DNA of 64,000 nt from Larkinella terrae (lineage in GTDB: Bacteria; Bacteroidota; Bacteroidia; Cytophagales; Spirosomataceae). Position 1 is the first letter of the stretch. Each line of letters starts with the position of its first letter. The notes under the pieces are model-generated. The model searched no databases. It saw only the letters and a program-made list of their open reading frames with translations, and had not been told where the DNA came from. A program made the translations under genes and the position numbers. Shown here in pieces: positions 35,605 through 43,282 of this stretch. The DNA lies in the NCBI RefSeq assembly GCF_009668025.1, contig NZ_WJXZ01000009.1:434001-498000 (forward strand). Direction: 5' to 3'.

Positions 35605-36414
35605 ATGAACATTTTAACTACCATTTCCCGCATCAGCTGCGCAGCGCTCATTCTCATGGGCAGCTTGACTTCCATGACGTCCTGTAAATCAAATTCGCCG
35701 GGACCCGATACGGAAAATCCGGGCGGACCAACGGCGGGCAAATCAGGCTATTTACTCGGAAAAGTGACTGATCCACAAGGCAATCCGTTGCCCCGCGCCA
35801 CGGTTTATACCGAAAACGATGTCTTTAAGGGCCGGGGTGTGGAAGTTTCCTCCGGCGCGGACGGAACGTACAAAATCCAATTGGTAAAAGACCTCGGCCA
35901 ATGGAATGTGCGGGGATATATTCTCAAACAATACAACGGCAAAGTATATAAAATCCAGTTGGATCCCGAGAATCCCGATAGCTTTACGGAAGCCGAAAAA
36001 CCGGTCCGAAATTTCCAGTGGAAACTCACCGGCCACATTCCGGATCTGAGCCTGGATTTGTACTATGGCGGGACAATGGAAATGTTTCGCGACCTCAATG
36101 CCAACGAGCTGTACGATAACGAAAATGTTGAATTCACTTTCAAGCCGGAGGGAAAACTGATTGACGGGTCGACCGGGAAAACGCTGAAAATTCAGGCCAA
36201 AAAGCGGTACAACACGATCATCAAGGACATTCCCATCGGGCGTTATACGGTGACGGCCATTTACAAACCAACAGGCGAGCAACTGCTGGTGTCCGACGCC
36301 TGGGGCGATGATTTTGTCAATTATAAACCGTCCGTCACGATGGATTTTCTGGGCACCGAGTCCGCCGTACGCTCCAACAGCATGGGAATTGGGTTCACGA
36401 ACCGGAAAAAATAA
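35605..36414 (+). CDS. Lipoprotein with carboxypeptidase-regulatory-like domain
   Basis: A 269-residue lipoprotein with lipobox TSMTSC (Cys27). After a Pro/Gly linker a carboxypeptidase-regulatory-like beta-sandwich is visible (GYLLGKVTDPQGNPLPRAT, then SSGADGTYKIQLV). The rest is beta-rich with an acidic loop (MFRDLNANELYDNENVEF) that resembles a calcium-binding segment. Such domains usually mediate surface binding. It is a single gene with its own promoter, convergent with the NRPS gene; two inverted repeats separate them. No functional link to the NRPS is evident. Confidence 0.75.
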   Translation: MNILTTISRISCAALILMGSLTSMTSCKSNSPGPDTENPGGPTAGKSGYLLGKVTDPQGNPLPRATVYTENDVFKGRGVEVSSGADGTYKIQLVKDLGQWNVRGYILKQYNGKVYKIQLDPENPDSFTEAEKPVRNFQWKLTGHIPDLSLDLYYGGTMEMFRDLNANELYDNENVEFTFKPEGKLIDGSTGKTLKIQAKKRYNTIIKDIPIGRYTVTAIYKPTGEQLLVSDAWGDDFVNYKPSVTMDFLGTESAVRSNSMGIGFTNRKK

Positions 36415-36670: not shown

Positions 36671-39600
36671 TTAAACCGCGCTTTTCAAATAAGCTGTCAA
36701 AACCGCGCCCATTTTTGCAATCGTGCCTTCGTCCGCGAAGAGTGTTTCATGCAATCCGGGGATGAAGTGGACATCGACGCCTTGCCGGGCGTATCGGTCC
36801 CAGCCAAATTTGACGGTGTGACGGTGGTTGACCAGGTTGTCATTTCCGGCAGCCCGCAGCAGCACAACTTTCCCATCATATGGCTTAAACAGATACTTAC
36901 TATACGCTAATAAACTACTGGCTACCAAACGGTTACCTAATTGAATCGATTTAATTTTTGAGGCATCAATTGAGGAAATTGAAGCCCCAACCGGTAGCGA
37001 ATTTTTCAACCGATTCAGAAAATAACGGGTTGCCAGGGGGGCTTTTTTTTGAAAAAACCGCCAGAGTAAACCGGGATGTTTTGGCAACGAACGCCAGTAA
37101 TGGTAATAATACGTCAGCAACTGTCCCATCGGAATCTGATTCGGATTGTCGGCATGAGGGTTAACCGGATAACTATCGATCAGCGCGAGCAGATCGACAT
37201 CTTTCCCGATTTTTTTCAACTGATGGGCCATTTCAAAGGCGACAATTCCGCCCATCGAATACCCGCACAGCCGGTATGGGCCATTGGGCTGCTGCTCCAG
37301 AATCAACTTGACATAATAAGCAGCCATGTCTTCCAGTGATGTAAAAGGCTCCGTGCGGCCATCGAGACCAACGGCTTGCAAACCGTAAACTGGTTGATCG
37401 TCAGAAAGGTACGGCACAAGCTGGTAAGCATAACCAATGTCGCCGGAAATGGGATGTACGCAATAAAGCGGAGGGCGTCGGCCCTTTGGCTGGACGGCCA
37501 CCAGCGATTGCCAGATCCGTTCGGGATGAGCAGTTTCTAAATGAATGACCAGTTTCCGAATCGTCGGATTAGCAAAAACTGCTCCGACCGAAACGGCATG
37601 GCCCAACTGCCGCTGGAGTTCGGTGGTCAATTGAAAAGCCAGCAGTGAATGACCACCAATTTCGAAAAAATCATCGTCCAGACCCACGTCCGGCACTTTC
37701 AGCAAAGCGGACCAAGTGGTTCGGAGCCATTCGACCAATGCTTCCGTCGCGGTCGGGAGGGGCGGTTTTTCCTCAGAGACAAGGTTTTCGGAATTTGGCG
37801 ATTCCGCCAGCGTTTCGAAAACCGCTCCGGATTTTCCTTCCAGCTTACTAAACGGCACATCCGCGTACAAAGCCAGCGTCTCCAGCAAGGCAGTAAAGTC
37901 AAGAGAAAACTTCTCAATCGTCACAGAATTAAACAGATCGGTTCGGTAATTGAACGTTCCTTCAACGCCACCGGCCAGTTCCCGAAACGAAAGATGGAGA
38001 TCAAATTTTGCTGTATGCTGCACAAAAGGCAGCGGTTCAACCTGCAAATCGTCCAGTTGCCAGTCTTTTGAATGCTCATCCTGAAAGTCAAAAATGGCCT
38101 GAACGAGGGGCGTATGTGCCAGCGTTCGGGGCAGCTTCAGGGCTTCCACGACCTGTTCAAACGGCAAATCCTGGTGATCGAACGCTTCCAGCATCCAATC
38201 GCGTACTTTTCGCAGAAGTGTCCGAAATGAATCCTCGGCCTGAATTTCGATGCGCAGAGCCAGCGTGTTTACAAAAAAACCGATGTTATTCACCAACTCT
38301 GACCGATTCCGACCTGCTACCGGAATACCCACCACGACGTCCGGATTTCGGGTAACCCGGTACAGCCAGACCGAAAAAACCGTCAACAGCCGCAGAAAAA
38401 CCGTCGTTCCCGGCTCCTGTAAGCCCTGCCGAATCAGCGGCCAACGGTCGGCCGGAATGTGAAATGAATAATCGGCGCCTTCGAACGACTGAACCGCCGG
38501 ACGCGGTTTGTCGATGGGTAAATCCAGCAGATACGGCGCTCCCGCCAGGCGATTTTTCCAGTAAACCAGTTCCCGTTGCAGCATCGAAGGTGTAAAATGC
38601 GCCAGCTGCCAGCGGGCAAAATCGGCGTATTGCAGCGGGAGTTGTAGCAAAGCAACGGGTTGACCCTGCCTGAGCGACGAATAAATCCGGCTCAGTTCAT
38701 TCGCCAGAACGCGCGTCGACCAGCCGTCGTAAATAATATGGTGAAAAACCAGCAGCAAAAACCAGGAATCGTCGCCCAGACTGGCCACCCGAACCCGCAG
38801 CAGTGGACCGGTTTCCAGATCGAAAGGCTGGTAAGCTTCCGTATTGAGCCATTGATCTAGCCAATCAGCTTCCCGTCCGTTCCACTCACTGACCAAAACC
38901 GGTACGGAATCCGAAGCCGAAATGCGCTGAAAAGGCACGCCATCCGAATGACTGAAAGTGGTCCGCAAAATCTGGTGCCGACGAACCACTTCTTCGAGGC
39001 TCTGCTGCAAAACCGGAAGGTCCAGCAAGCCGTTGATTTTCAGAATAATCGGCACGTTATACGTTCCCCGCAGCTCGTGGAGCTGGTGAATAATCCAAAG
39101 TCGGGTCTGGGCAAACGACAACGGAATCGCCGATTCTGAATTGCCAAAATCGGCGGTTTTTAACTCCATCAGGTGCGGAAAACCGGGCTGTGAATTCTGG
39201 TCCAGAAACGCGCTCAGCCGCTGAATCGTCGGAAATTCAAAAAGATCTTTCAAACTCAGCAATCGGCCGAATTGCTGGTGAATCCGGGCAATCAACTGCA
39301 TCGCCAGAATCGAACTGCCGCCGAGTTCGAAAAAGTTATCTTCCCGGCTGCTGTCCGGCTGGTTCAGCACGGCGCTCCACAAAGGCAGCAGGGCGGTTTC
39401 GGTCGGGCTCAGTTCAGCGTCCGGATGGGCTTTCCGCAGCAAAACCGGGGGCAGACGTTTTTTGTCCAGCTTGCCATTGTCGGTTAACGGCAGCTCTTTC
39501 AGCAAGCAGAAAGCCGTCGGAATCAGATAGTTGGGCAGGCGGTTTCGCAAAAATGTCCGCAGCACTTCTGCGTCAGGATTGGCACCGGGCCGGGGCACAA

Positions 39601-42600
39601 CATAAGCGGCCAGCATCTTTTGCCCCGGTGCCGGTTCAATTGCCAGCACAACCGCTTCCGCAAGTCCCGGATGTTGAAGAAGCGCATGCTCGATTTCCCC
39701 CGGCTCGATCCGAAAACCGCGCATTTTGAGCTGATCATCCAGACGTCCCAGAAACTCGATGGTGCCATCGGATTGAAACCGCGCCTGATCACCCGTTCGA
39801 TAAAGCCGCTGTTCGGGCTCGTTACTGAACGAATGAAGGACAAACTTTTCGCGCGTCAATTCCGGTTGAAACAGATACTCCCTCGCCAATCCGTCTCCGC
39901 CGATGAGTAACTCGCCGGGAACACCCGGCGGAACCGGATTGAAAAACGAATCGACAACGTATAACCGGGTGTTACTGAGCGGTTTTCCAATCGGAACCGA
40001 GCGGTTTTCCCAGGTCGATGCCGATAAATTAAAATAGCTGGCAAACGTGGTGCTTTCGGTTGGGCCATAGCCGTTGATGAAGGTACAGAACGGCATCTGG
40101 CGTTGGGCCCGACGGACGTGCTCGGCCGAGGCCGCTTCCCCGCCCATGATGATTTGGGAAAGGGTAGTCAGTTCCTCAATTCCCGTATCGATCAGGACAT
40201 TAAAGAGGGCAGTTGTAAAAAAAGCACTGTTAACCTGATGATTCTGAACGGTATGTTTAATTAATTCGAAAGTCGGACGATTTTCGGTGATCAGGACCAG
40301 TTCTCCACCATTCGTCAGACTTCCCCAAATTTCCAGCGTCGACGCATCGAACGAAAGGGGAGCCAGTCCCAGCATAACCGTATTTTCATCCAGTTGAGCA
40401 TAATTAGCTCCTTTCACCAGGCGCACAATACCCCGGTGCGGAATGGCCACGTTTTTAGGTTTTCCCGTTGACCCGGACGTAAACAGGACGTAAGCCAGAT
40501 GGCCCGCGCCGACCAAAACCGCCGGATTGCCGACACTTTCGCTCTCCCAGGGAGCCTCTTCATTGTCCAAAATCAGGTACGTGACACCTGTTGTTGGCAG
40601 GTGGTCCAGCCACTTTTGCTGCGTCAAAATGAACGAGATGTGGGTCTGCCTGCACAGCTCCGCGAGACGAGCGGGCGGATACGAAGGATCGAGCGGAACG
40701 TAGGCGCCACCGGTTTTCAGAATAGCTAACAGGCTGATAATCATTGCCGGAGAACGCTCGGCACAAAGTCCGACCAGCGTACCCGGCTCAACGCCCTGTT
40801 TTTGCAGATACCGCGCCAACTGATTAGCACGTTGATTTAACTCCCCGTAGGTCAGCGTGTTGGGGCCACAACGCAACGCAACGGCCTGTGGTCGCTCCTG
40901 CGCCTGTTCTTCCACCAGGTAATGCACCGGCTGGTGACGGGGATAGGGAACATCCTTGGCATTCCAGTCAACCAGCATGCGGTTCCGTTCCTCCGACGTC
41001 AGCAGATCGACGGTTTTCAGCGGTTGTGTTGGAACCTGGAGCAACTTTTCCAGCAAAATCAACCAGCGGTTGATGAGTTCCGCAACCTGATCGGCCTGCC
41101 AGCTTGCCGGGCTGTAAGCGATCCGGCAGGTAGCATCGTCGGAAACGACTAGAACAAGCGGCTGATTTTCAAAGACTAAGACCTCTTTATCCGTTGAACG
41201 GCAAATAATGATAGGAAATAGCGATTCGGCATCATCCTGCATTCCGACTGACAAAACCGATTCATTCCAAGGCCGATCGGAGGAAACGGTTTGCCGGTTT
41301 TCAACGGTCGATTGTTCCCGTCGAAAAACCGCAAGGGCGTGCTCAAAACCGGTTTCCCAATCAACAGTCAGGACGAACGGAACGCAATCGGCAAAAAGAC
41401 TACCGGTTTTTCGGGCGATCTCACGGCTTTCCGGTCCGGCATAGCCCACTGCAATCGTTTGCTGACTGGCCAGACGACCAACCGTTAGCAGAAAAGCGGT
41501 CAGCAGCCGATCGGTTTTATCCGAAACCGTCGGAAGCGAATCCAGCAGCGTTTCAATAGCGGTATGCAAACAAACATGGACCCACTCCGTTTCTCTTTTG
41601 GCCTTATTTTCAAGCTGTTGAGAAGGCGATATGGAAACCGTGCTCGGTGAAAAAGTACGGTATTTCTCCAGCCAGTATGCCTGATGCCGATTCAATTGAC
41701 TATCCGCCCGAAGGTATTCCCGCCGAAACGAATCGTCCGGCTGAGTCAGCACCAGACCGGTTTTCAGATTGAACTGGTTAGTGAGTTCGGAGAAGGAAAC
41801 CGGTTTTCCGCTCAGGGTGGTCAGCGATCGAATACACAGTAAACCGCTGCCGGTGGCGACCCTTAACTCGTTGGGTTCGATGGCGGTTATCGTTCCAGGC
41901 GGATTGGCTGAAAAATCACCCGCTTCATCGATCATTATCAGTTCTTTAACCTGAAAAAAGTCGTTACCTAACCTGATTTTCAGGAAGCCAAACGGACTGG
42001 TATGAAATCCAAAATTCAGCGCCCGAACCAAGCGGGCGGTCTCGGCGGCCGGTTTGCGAAAATCAAATAGGGTGTCGGGGCGGTTTTTCCGACCAAAATA
42101 CGTCCGCCGGGAAAGGTCCTGCGGCTGGGCTACCAGTTGATCCGATGCCAGTTCGTCGGCCAGTTCCCGAAAAGCAGCCAGCGCTGCCGAGTAACACTTG
42201 ATATTCAGCCCAATCGAGGTTTCGTCGGGCTCAACTGGAAACCAGTGTTGTTTCAAAATCGGGCCGGTATCAATGCCCGCATCCACGATATGCCAGGTAA
42301 TGGCGTGTTCTTTTTCCTGATTGATCAGCGCCCAGAAAGTGGCATGCACCCCGGCGTAAGCAGGCAGCGGGCCGTCGTGGTAATTAATCGTGCAGCGCCG
42401 GGGCAGGTCAAGGATCGACTCAGGTAGAATATAGTCGTTGGAGATACTGAACAGATAATCAAAGGGTTCTACCGCCAAAACCGCGTCGAATGGTTGTTGA
42501 GCATCCAAAAACCGTAAACCGGTTTCGTTGCAAAACCGGTTTACCAGACGATCGTCAGCAATTATGCCTTTAATAATAAAACCATTCTGTTGGAGAATTT

Positions 42601-42655
42601 TTGCGCATTCAATCAGTAAGGAATCCTTGCCAATTATAAAGCACGAGTAAGGCAT
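36671..42655 (-). CDS. Nonribosomal peptide synthetase, F-C*-A-T-C-T-TE
   Basis: A 1994-residue peptide synthetase. Domain order: formyltransferase 1-310 (Asn91, His93 in NYHDGPLPAYAG; Asp129 in GIDTG; C-terminal subdomain about 195-300); C-terminal half of a condensation domain about 320-545, without the HHxxxDG half; adenylation 575-1075 (FTSGSTGKPK at 725-734, GYGPTE at 862-867, Lys1062 in NGKLDK); carrier with Ser1115 in LGGSS; full condensation domain 1177-1600 with HHIIYDG at 1305-1311; second carrier with Ser1670 in IGGHS; thioesterase 1725-1994 (Ser1800 in GYSMGG, Asp1827, His1969). The specificity residues, aligned by hand to GrsA, read D-A-L-F-I-G-G-T-F-K, close to valine codes. The second module lacks its own adenylation domain. 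N-formylated initiation is known from LgrA. The product is unknown; no accessory genes are near. Confidence 0.95.
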   Translation of the reverse strand: MPYSCFIIGKDSLLIECAKILQQNGFIIKGIIADDRLVNRFCNETGLRFLDAQQPFDAVLAVEPFDYLFSISNDYILPESILDLPRRCTINYHDGPLPAYAGVHATFWALINQEKEHAITWHIVDAGIDTGPILKQHWFPVEPDETSIGLNIKCYSAALAAFRELADELASDQLVAQPQDLSRRTYFGRKNRPDTLFDFRKPAAETARLVRALNFGFHTSPFGFLKIRLGNDFFQVKELIMIDEAGDFSANPPGTITAIEPNELRVATGSGLLCIRSLTTLSGKPVSFSELTNQFNLKTGLVLTQPDDSFRREYLRADSQLNRHQAYWLEKYRTFSPSTVSISPSQQLENKAKRETEWVHVCLHTAIETLLDSLPTVSDKTDRLLTAFLLTVGRLASQQTIAVGYAGPESREIARKTGSLFADCVPFVLTVDWETGFEHALAVFRREQSTVENRQTVSSDRPWNESVLSVGMQDDAESLFPIIICRSTDKEVLVFENQPLVLVVSDDATCRIAYSPASWQADQVAELINRWLILLEKLLQVPTQPLKTVDLLTSEERNRMLVDWNAKDVPYPRHQPVHYLVEEQAQERPQAVALRCGPNTLTYGELNQRANQLARYLQKQGVEPGTLVGLCAERSPAMIISLLAILKTGGAYVPLDPSYPPARLAELCRQTHISFILTQQKWLDHLPTTGVTYLILDNEEAPWESESVGNPAVLVGAGHLAYVLFTSGSTGKPKNVAIPHRGIVRLVKGANYAQLDENTVMLGLAPLSFDASTLEIWGSLTNGGELVLITENRPTFELIKHTVQNHQVNSAFFTTALFNVLIDTGIEELTTLSQIIMGGEAASAEHVRRAQRQMPFCTFINGYGPTESTTFASYFNLSASTWENRSVPIGKPLSNTRLYVVDSFFNPVPPGVPGELLIGGDGLAREYLFQPELTREKFVLHSFSNEPEQRLYRTGDQARFQSDGTIEFLGRLDDQLKMRGFRIEPGEIEHALLQHPGLAEAVVLAIEPAPGQKMLAAYVVPRPGANPDAEVLRTFLRNRLPNYLIPTAFCLLKELPLTDNGKLDKKRLPPVLLRKAHPDAELSPTETALLPLWSAVLNQPDSSREDNFFELGGSSILAMQLIARIHQQFGRLLSLKDLFEFPTIQRLSAFLDQNSQPGFPHLMELKTADFGNSESAIPLSFAQTRLWIIHQLHELRGTYNVPIILKINGLLDLPVLQQSLEEVVRRHQILRTTFSHSDGVPFQRISASDSVPVLVSEWNGREADWLDQWLNTEAYQPFDLETGPLLRVRVASLGDDSWFLLLVFHHIIYDGWSTRVLANELSRIYSSLRQGQPVALLQLPLQYADFARWQLAHFTPSMLQRELVYWKNRLAGAPYLLDLPIDKPRPAVQSFEGADYSFHIPADRWPLIRQGLQEPGTTVFLRLLTVFSVWLYRVTRNPDVVVGIPVAGRNRSELVNNIGFFVNTLALRIEIQAEDSFRTLLRKVRDWMLEAFDHQDLPFEQVVEALKLPRTLAHTPLVQAIFDFQDEHSKDWQLDDLQVEPLPFVQHTAKFDLHLSFRELAGGVEGTFNYRTDLFNSVTIEKFSLDFTALLETLALYADVPFSKLEGKSGAVFETLAESPNSENLVSEEKPPLPTATEALVEWLRTTWSALLKVPDVGLDDDFFEIGGHSLLAFQLTTELQRQLGHAVSVGAVFANPTIRKLVIHLETAHPERIWQSLVAVQPKGRRPPLYCVHPISGDIGYAYQLVPYLSDDQPVYGLQAVGLDGRTEPFTSLEDMAAYYVKLILEQQPNGPYRLCGYSMGGIVAFEMAHQLKKIGKDVDLLALIDSYPVNPHADNPNQIPMGQLLTYYYHYWRSLPKHPGLLWRFFQKKAPLATRYFLNRLKNSLPVGASISSIDASKIKSIQLGNRLVASSLLAYSKYLFKPYDGKVVLLRAAGNDNLVNHRHTVKFGWDRYARQGVDVHFIPGLHETLFADEGTIAKMGAVLTAYLKSAV

Positions 42656-42904: not shown

Positions 42905-43282
42905 TTACTTCTGCTTTCGACGCTCCTTCAGTTCGGCTTTCATTTCTTCCTTAACCGTCTGATATTGCTTGTATTGATCGGCGGTCAGCACTTTTTTCAA
43001 TTCTTTATCTTTCTCTTTCATAGAGCTCTGAACCTGACGGGCGGTGCGCAGGTTACGTCCGCCGGTTTCCATCAGCGACTGGTTTTGCCGCGCGTATTTC
43101 AGGTTGATTTCGGCCACGGGGGTTTCCTGATCGGCGGTCAGATTCAGTTTTTCCTTCATGCGGGCCGTTAGTTTGGCAGCCCGTTCTTCGGGTGTACCGA
43201 GGGGAGCGCGCTGGGCAAAGGAGGCAGAAGCGGCTAACAAAACGATAAGGAACAAAGCGGTTTTTAACAGGTTGGTTTTCAT
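42905..43282 (-). CDS. Spy/CpxP-like secreted protein
   Basis: A 125-residue periplasmic protein with signal peptide ending SASFAQ. The mature part is highly charged and helical: GTPEERAAKLTARMKEKLNLT, a QETPVAEINLKYARQNQSL helix and a C-terminal LTADQYKQYQTVKEEMKAEL. This LTxxQ-containing helical pattern is typical of Spy/CpxP-like (DUF4890-type) proteins thought to act as periplasmic chaperones or stress sensors. It is a single gene upstream of the LytS/LytR pair's end, with a good promoter match at 43325-43357. Confidence 0.78.
   Translation of the reverse strand: MKTNLLKTALFLIVLLAASASFAQRAPLGTPEERAAKLTARMKEKLNLTADQETPVAEINLKYARQNQSLMETGGRNLRTARQVQSSMKEKDKELKKVLTADQYKQYQTVKEEMKAELKERRKQK

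Follow-up and report, generated by a model that had tools for sequence, protein, structure and literature searches.

A 64,000-nucleotide stretch of the Larkinella terrae genome (contig NZ_WJXZ01000009.1, positions 434,001 to 498,000 of the forward strand; hereafter the window) carries on its reverse strand a single gene for a formylating nonribosomal peptide synthetase (NRPS; 36671..42655) with two carrier domains and one adenylation domain. Its domains follow the order F-C*-A-T-C-T-TE, where F is a formyltransferase, C* a remnant of a condensation domain, A an adenylation, T a carrier, C a condensation and TE a thioesterase domain. Sequence comparison places this one-gene machine as a reduced form peculiar to one clade among widespread F-C*-A modules. 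We see an even chance that the one A domain charges both carriers of this dimodular enzyme, and its product is likely an N-formyl dipeptide starting with a Val- or Ile-like residue. A small N-formylated dipeptide-like product from a single gene had been suggested in an earlier note on this DNA; it is still the likeliest output, as something that we infer.

The gene is one open reading frame (ORF) of 1994 residues with an ATG start, and all features given here lie on its strand. The F domain (residues 1–300; 41756..42655), a long formyltransferase of the FMT/ArnA type with N and C subdomains (Formyl_trans_N at 76–151, Formyl_trans_C at 194–295), has intact N91, H93, and D129. It is followed by C* (316–571; 40943..41710), which corresponds to the part of a condensation domain after HHxxxDG plus the C-A linker, and by the A domain (575–1070; 39446..40933; AMP-binding at 582–928, AMP-binding_C at 987–1062). 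Two PP-binding matches mark the carriers T1 (1085–1155; 39191..39403), with Ser1115 in GGSS, and T2 (1640–1712; 37520..37738), with Ser1670 in GGHS. Between them stands the only full C domain (1172–1610; 37826..39142; Condensation at 1175–1605), with HHIIYDG at 1305 and best matches to the condensation domains of Txo1 and Txo2 (327.6 and 301.6 bits). The TE domain (1722–1994; 36674..37492; Thioesterase at 1729–1974) ends the protein, and Ser1800, found in GYSMGG, likely forms its catalytic triad with Asp1827 and His1969. The same domains F, A, T, C, T, and TE come out of sequence searches against Pfam, NCBIfam, and PDB. The gene combines A, T, and C domains bearing core motifs with a release domain, as in NRPSs generally, an N-terminal formyltransferase with N-x-H...D, as in initiation modules of the LgrA/ApdA/kolossin kind, and a C-T module without an A domain, as in trans-loaded modules. 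Profile searches and direct residue reading bore out the order and the single A domain put forward in the earlier note, along with its account of intact F residues, carrier serines, HHIIYDG, and TE triad; a non-functional F or C domain, which would have told against it, was not seen, the motifs of both being intact.

No A domain precedes T2. The Pfam, NCBIfam, and PDB searches returned a single A domain in the gene, and the linker from C to T2 is only 33–37 residues long in all five complete genes of the clade, which rules out a hidden second one, an objection raised beforehand. These five genes come from L. terrae (the window), Larkinella knui, L. humicola, L. soli, and a further genome, G203. 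All five have the order F-C*-A-T-C-T-TE, and the other four proteins are 41–61% identical to that of the window. In genome G188 the same order is spread over two frames with the break inside the A domain, and in G209 the gene stops at a contig end within A; G203, G188, and G209 carry one shared genus label. The F residues are kept in all seven aligned rows, and the carrier serines and TE residues in all six rows covering them. The seven sequences form one clade (support 100/96) with L. soli basal and a Cytophagales metagenome-assembled genome (MAG) adjoining, in a tree that left out L079, L080, L081, and L083 (duplicate records of L041, L042, L045, and L046) as well as L047, L048, and L125. 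Misassembly, or the fusion of two separate genes, is ruled out by the same domain order in other assemblies; here, too, the homologue search proposed earlier came out in favor of a genuine layout. Searches of the open-access literature turned up no description of this architecture. Since the motifs and the short C-T linker are preserved in all five complete genes, the state without a second A domain is probably older than the clade. This conservation also bears on the idea of a decaying NRPS that lost its second A domain and makes no product. The patchy distribution (7 of 222 family genomes) and the split A domain of G188 would fit such decay, but the retention of motifs and linker at these levels of divergence makes it highly improbable.

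At ten pocket positions the A domain reads DALFIGGTFK in the window and DALFVGGTFK, DALFAGGTF(K), or DAFFLGVTFK in the relatives, and so stays aliphatic-like across the clade (DALF[IVA]GGTF or DAFFLGVTF). By the known codes for Val (DAFWIGGTFK/DALWIGGTFK), Ile (DAFFLGVTFK), and Gly (DILQLGLIWK), and with the usual numbering of the ten positions, the substrate is likely Val- or Ile-like. The route from substrate to product is predicted from the domain content. The A domain would load T1 with an activated Val- or Ile-like amino acid of the branched aliphatic kind, whose amino group F would formylate with a formyl-folate as donor. Condensation of this formyl-aminoacyl unit with an aminoacyl unit on T2 would fall to the full C domain, and TE would release an N-formyl dipeptide. 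If the same A domain also charged T2, the products would be N-formyl-Val-Val-like or Ile-Ile-like. One A domain serving two T domains has a precedent in mannopeptimycin, as described in a review (PMC8949500).

Charging of both carriers by one A domain is favored above all by L. soli. Its genome holds one condensation match, which lies in this NRPS gene. Among nine TIGR01733 matches a single one exceeds the amino-acid cut-off, and it lies in the same gene; the other eight, all AMP-binding matches, score below. Since the sole match over the cut-off belongs to the NRPS, no other ordinary A domain was found in L. soli to load T2, in a draft genome of ~80 contigs (99% complete) in which a missed A domain is possible. 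A phosphopantetheinyl transferase (PPTase) gene, one of two PPTase-superfamily genes in that genome, stands directly beside the NRPS. The lone condensation match, the lone A domain over the cut-off, and the adjacent PPTase therefore favor one A domain charging both carriers. Genome G209 (71% complete) likewise lacks a further A domain above the amino-acid cut-off, and there too a PPTase gene is directly beside the NRPS. A weak hint comes from the carriers themselves, T1 and T2 sharing an identity of 0.46 in L. soli vs. 0.28–0.38 in the five others measured.

Several observations weigh against this reading. T1 and T2 are, after all, only 28–46% identical. In the window genome, four A domains besides that of the NRPS exceed the amino-acid cut-off, and for that reason the argument from L. 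soli reaches it by homology only. The same genome encodes a stand-alone 867-residue protein (G000:C4, L078:373-2976, reverse strand) composed by eye of A, carrier, and thioesterase parts (A-T-TE); with this protein and the four A domains, trans loading would be possible there. A weak A match of L. soli (189.6 bits, under the cut-off) in a frame of 824 residues may be the same A-T-TE protein. In L. humicola, a separate gene for an amino-acid A domain begins 44 bp downstream of the NRPS, just as trans loading would look. As a separate observation, A-bearing frames of 824–859 residues are present in L. knui, L. humicola, L. soli, and G203.

Accordingly, a separate adenylation protein could load T2 in trans, as SyrB1 does for SyrE, with a product of N-formyl-Val or -Ile joined to a different amino acid, a possibility that we regard as real but rather unlikely. 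Its main support is the L. humicola gene (L042:3877-5544, reverse strand), which lies on the NRPS strand past the NRPS stop codon and encodes a 555-residue protein that lacks a carrier domain and scores 421.5 bits with TIGR01733, above the cut-off. The pocket of this protein, DIVQMCLIYK, is unlike that of the NRPS and resembles DILQLGM[VI]W, which two related A domains encoded in the window genome have and which is Gly-like by the codes given above. Other A domains are thus at hand in the window genome, and a precedent exists in the C-T-TE end of SyrE with SyrB1, as reported in the review (PMC8949500). However, a linked A gene occurs at only one of seven loci: the window, L. knui, L. soli, G203, and G188 have none beside the NRPS, the broken G188 being less informative, as is G209, which ends with the contig. 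Relatives of the stand-alone protein in the other six genomes are either inside large NRPS or polyketide synthase (PKS) frames or weak, at most 133 bits, and L. soli lacks another A domain over the cut-off. We also observed that the L. humicola protein is 53–56% identical to A domains that form part of large PKS/NRPS frames in the same two genera.

Carriers without an A domain can be charged in other ways as well, and the module here has none. T2 might carry something other than an amino acid, or stay empty and merely receive the formyl-aminoacyl group before release, giving a formyl-amino acid or an acyl product. We consider this improbable in view of the intact HHxxxDG of the C domain and its similarity to the Txo1 and Txo2 condensation domains, and of the T2 serine kept in 6/6 rows; in addition, no acyltransferase family was found among the 30 neighbor proteins scanned, a subset of all neighbors. 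The three routes for loading T2 listed earlier (in trans, by the same A domain, or with a non-amino-acid) are all supported as possibilities, of unequal weight.

A single A domain serving both carriers can be reconciled with the L. humicola locus if the dedicated stand-alone A protein there has taken over T2. The fuller proposal, a self-contained N-formyl-dipeptide synthetase with one A domain for both carriers and formylation on carrier 1 only, from which carrier 2 was handed to a captured A protein in L. humicola, falls somewhat short of an even chance in our judgment. If it is true, the L. soli NRPS and its adjacent PPTase would constitute a whole pathway, and L. soli and L. humicola would form a natural before-and-after pair for the change of a second monomer in assembly lines. 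The reduction to a single gene makes the charging of a carrier without its own A domain testable in one protein, with these two species as natural contrasts.

LgrA, the linear gramicidin synthetase subunit, had been cited as an established case of an F domain at an NRPS start; the F domain here is not of its form. Among PDB chains it scores 71.4 bits with methionyl-tRNA formyltransferase 5uai, 55–62 with ArnA, and 30–32 with LgrA, and by these matches it is the long methionyl-tRNA-formyltransferase/ArnA form with a C-terminal subdomain. In the LgrA type a short F leads directly into A, whereas here the long F is followed by the ~250 residues of C*. These residues are related to the second half of condensation domains. 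The window C* reaches 21.7 bits with Condensation PF00668, under the cut-off of 30.6, and covers only positions 398–455 of 456; those of L. humicola and G203 exceed the cut-off (43.3 and 42.8 bits at positions 178–454 and 188–456, respectively). With a profile of the seven C* sequences, 24 PDB sequences are hit at E ≤ 0.01, and each is an NRPS or PKS-NRPS chain. HHxxxD is absent from all seven, and C* varies more than any other domain (mean pairwise identity of 0.33 vs. 0.47–0.58 for the other domains in five proteins). It therefore appears to be a non-catalytic remnant that probably serves as a structural bridge between F and A.

An F domain followed by half a condensation domain is an ordinary arrangement. 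A scan of the named genomes with the window F-C* alone gave no match, and one made with the alignment and keyed on two F-domain peptides gave 47 loci. They span more than ten phyla, including Bacteroidota, Cyanobacteriota, Pseudomonadota, Chloroflexota, Acidobacteriota, Planctomycetota, Verrucomicrobiota, Gemmatimonadota, Myxococcota, Bacillota, Campylobacterota, and Actinomycetota. C* follows F in the same ORF at 40 of the 46 loci with a long enough F domain (L125, a fragment, is left out), four of the 40 being from the window's clade. At the other six, C* lies in the next frame in one case and was not called in five (L113, L115, L117, L118, and L123), where 225–375 residues still separate F and A; the calls used profiles built from the clade itself, which may miss divergent domains. 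Calls at L114, L116, and L122 are weak (about 19–23 bits), and the full order is hidden at loci ending with a contig (e.g., L081, L082, L090, L109, and L114). Counting duplicates, 53 of 54 F domains have the residues N, H, and D, the exception being L121. The half condensation domain, singled out earlier as a special feature, is on these comparisons common to F-bearing loci, and the distinctive trait of the Spirosomaceae clade is its C-T-TE end without an A domain.

The F-C* query finds a match at E up to 1e-10 in 105 of 222 family genomes, yet it is matched over its full length in only seven, the window's included; the other matches listed stop by query residue 330, in or just past the formyltransferase part. 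A phylum sample of 395 genomes gave hits at 1e-40 in two, the window genome and G575. The window is part of contig C22 in a 7.8-Mb genome, and its NRPS gene (52.4% G+C vs. 50.3% for the window) is flanked by a lipoprotein-like CarboxypepD_reg gene (35605..36414, forward) on one side and a DUF4890 gene (42905..43282, reverse) on the other. These two genes adjoin in three genomes without an NRPS at that place. In G138 they are ~100 bp apart and 11 neighbor proteins are 82–94% identical; the empty order recurs in G140 and also in L. humicola, on contig C11, the NRPS of that species being elsewhere (contig C8). G137 has the same order of the stretch with no lipoprotein match. The L. knui NRPS occupies the same interval, where the lipoprotein, DUF4890, LytTR regulator, and histidine kinase gave no match. 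The NRPS thus looks like a patchy accessory gene inserted singly, in keeping with the single-gene locus described before. A tie to the neighboring two-component system, DUF4374, and lipoprotein genes is unsupported, as these occur together without the NRPS in G138, G140, and L. humicola C11. DUF4374 includes a siderophore-binding lipoprotein of Bacteroides, and the neighborhood comparison gave no reason to connect it with the NRPS. The reported lack of a transporter, PPTase, MbtH, or tailoring gene nearby was confirmed among the 10 neighbor proteins scanned, three of which matched no family. Two PPTase-superfamily genes of the window genome lie away from the NRPS, and MbtH had no match in any of the seven genomes. 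At other loci of the clade, a phage-integrase-family gene (L044:4331-5641, reverse) follows the G203 NRPS, with an MFS transporter gene (L044:12462-13751, forward) on its other side, and two small genes near the L. humicola NRPS (L042:2411-3316, reverse) resemble by eye a RES/Xre toxin-antitoxin pair.

A 2022 review counted only three peptides that owe their formyl group to an NRPS F domain, in each case one belonging to the initiation module (PMC8949500); F domains have later been assigned to discodermins and halicylindramides (PMC12858407, PMC11705928). L089 (5324-13549), with the order C-A-T-C-F-C*-A-T, contrasts with the review's account (PMC8949500); F stands mid-frame, after C or T, there and at L090, L100, L114, L116, L117, and L119. 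A Pyrinomonadaceae MAG (L087:9947-20269) carries two tandem F-C*-A-T-TE genes, i.e., one-module formylating synthetases. The window genome itself holds two similar large clusters (L047 and L048, on G000 contigs C12 and C7), each with a first gene of about 2230 residues that starts A-T and has by eye an aminotransferase-like end, and a second of about 1750 residues with C-A-T-TE and an insertion in the A domain.

Among known systems, LgrA (F-A-T-C-A-T...) shares an F at the start and homologous A and C domains with the window protein, and, as is likely here, its first residue is aliphatic. It differs in its only weakly similar F, in an A domain that begins around residue 205 and so leaves C* no space, and in a further A domain at about 1228–1714. 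In mannopeptimycin synthetase (C-A-T-E-C-A-T-C-T-E) one A serves two T domains across a C, in a longer line whose order, as quoted in the review, includes no F domain (PMC8949500). The syringomycin system shares the terminal C-T-TE without an A domain, and there an A-T protein supplies the residue (PMC8949500), whereas no A gene adjoins the NRPS in the window. F-C*-A-T modules of Cyanobacteriota, Planctomycetota, Acidobacteriota, Verrucomicrobiota, and other phyla have the same order of F, C*, A, and T, but none was seen to end as F-C*-A-T-C-T-TE in one ORF: some end as F-C*-A-T-TE, others continue with complete modules, and several, such as L109 (F-C*-A-T-C), end with the contig. Bacterium UASB270 (locus L086) differs in using two genes, in placing two A-bearing modules before the A-less one, and in an ORF without a called TE, yet its F-C*-A-T gene followed by a C-A-T-C-T gene arrives at a comparable terminal C-T without an A domain.

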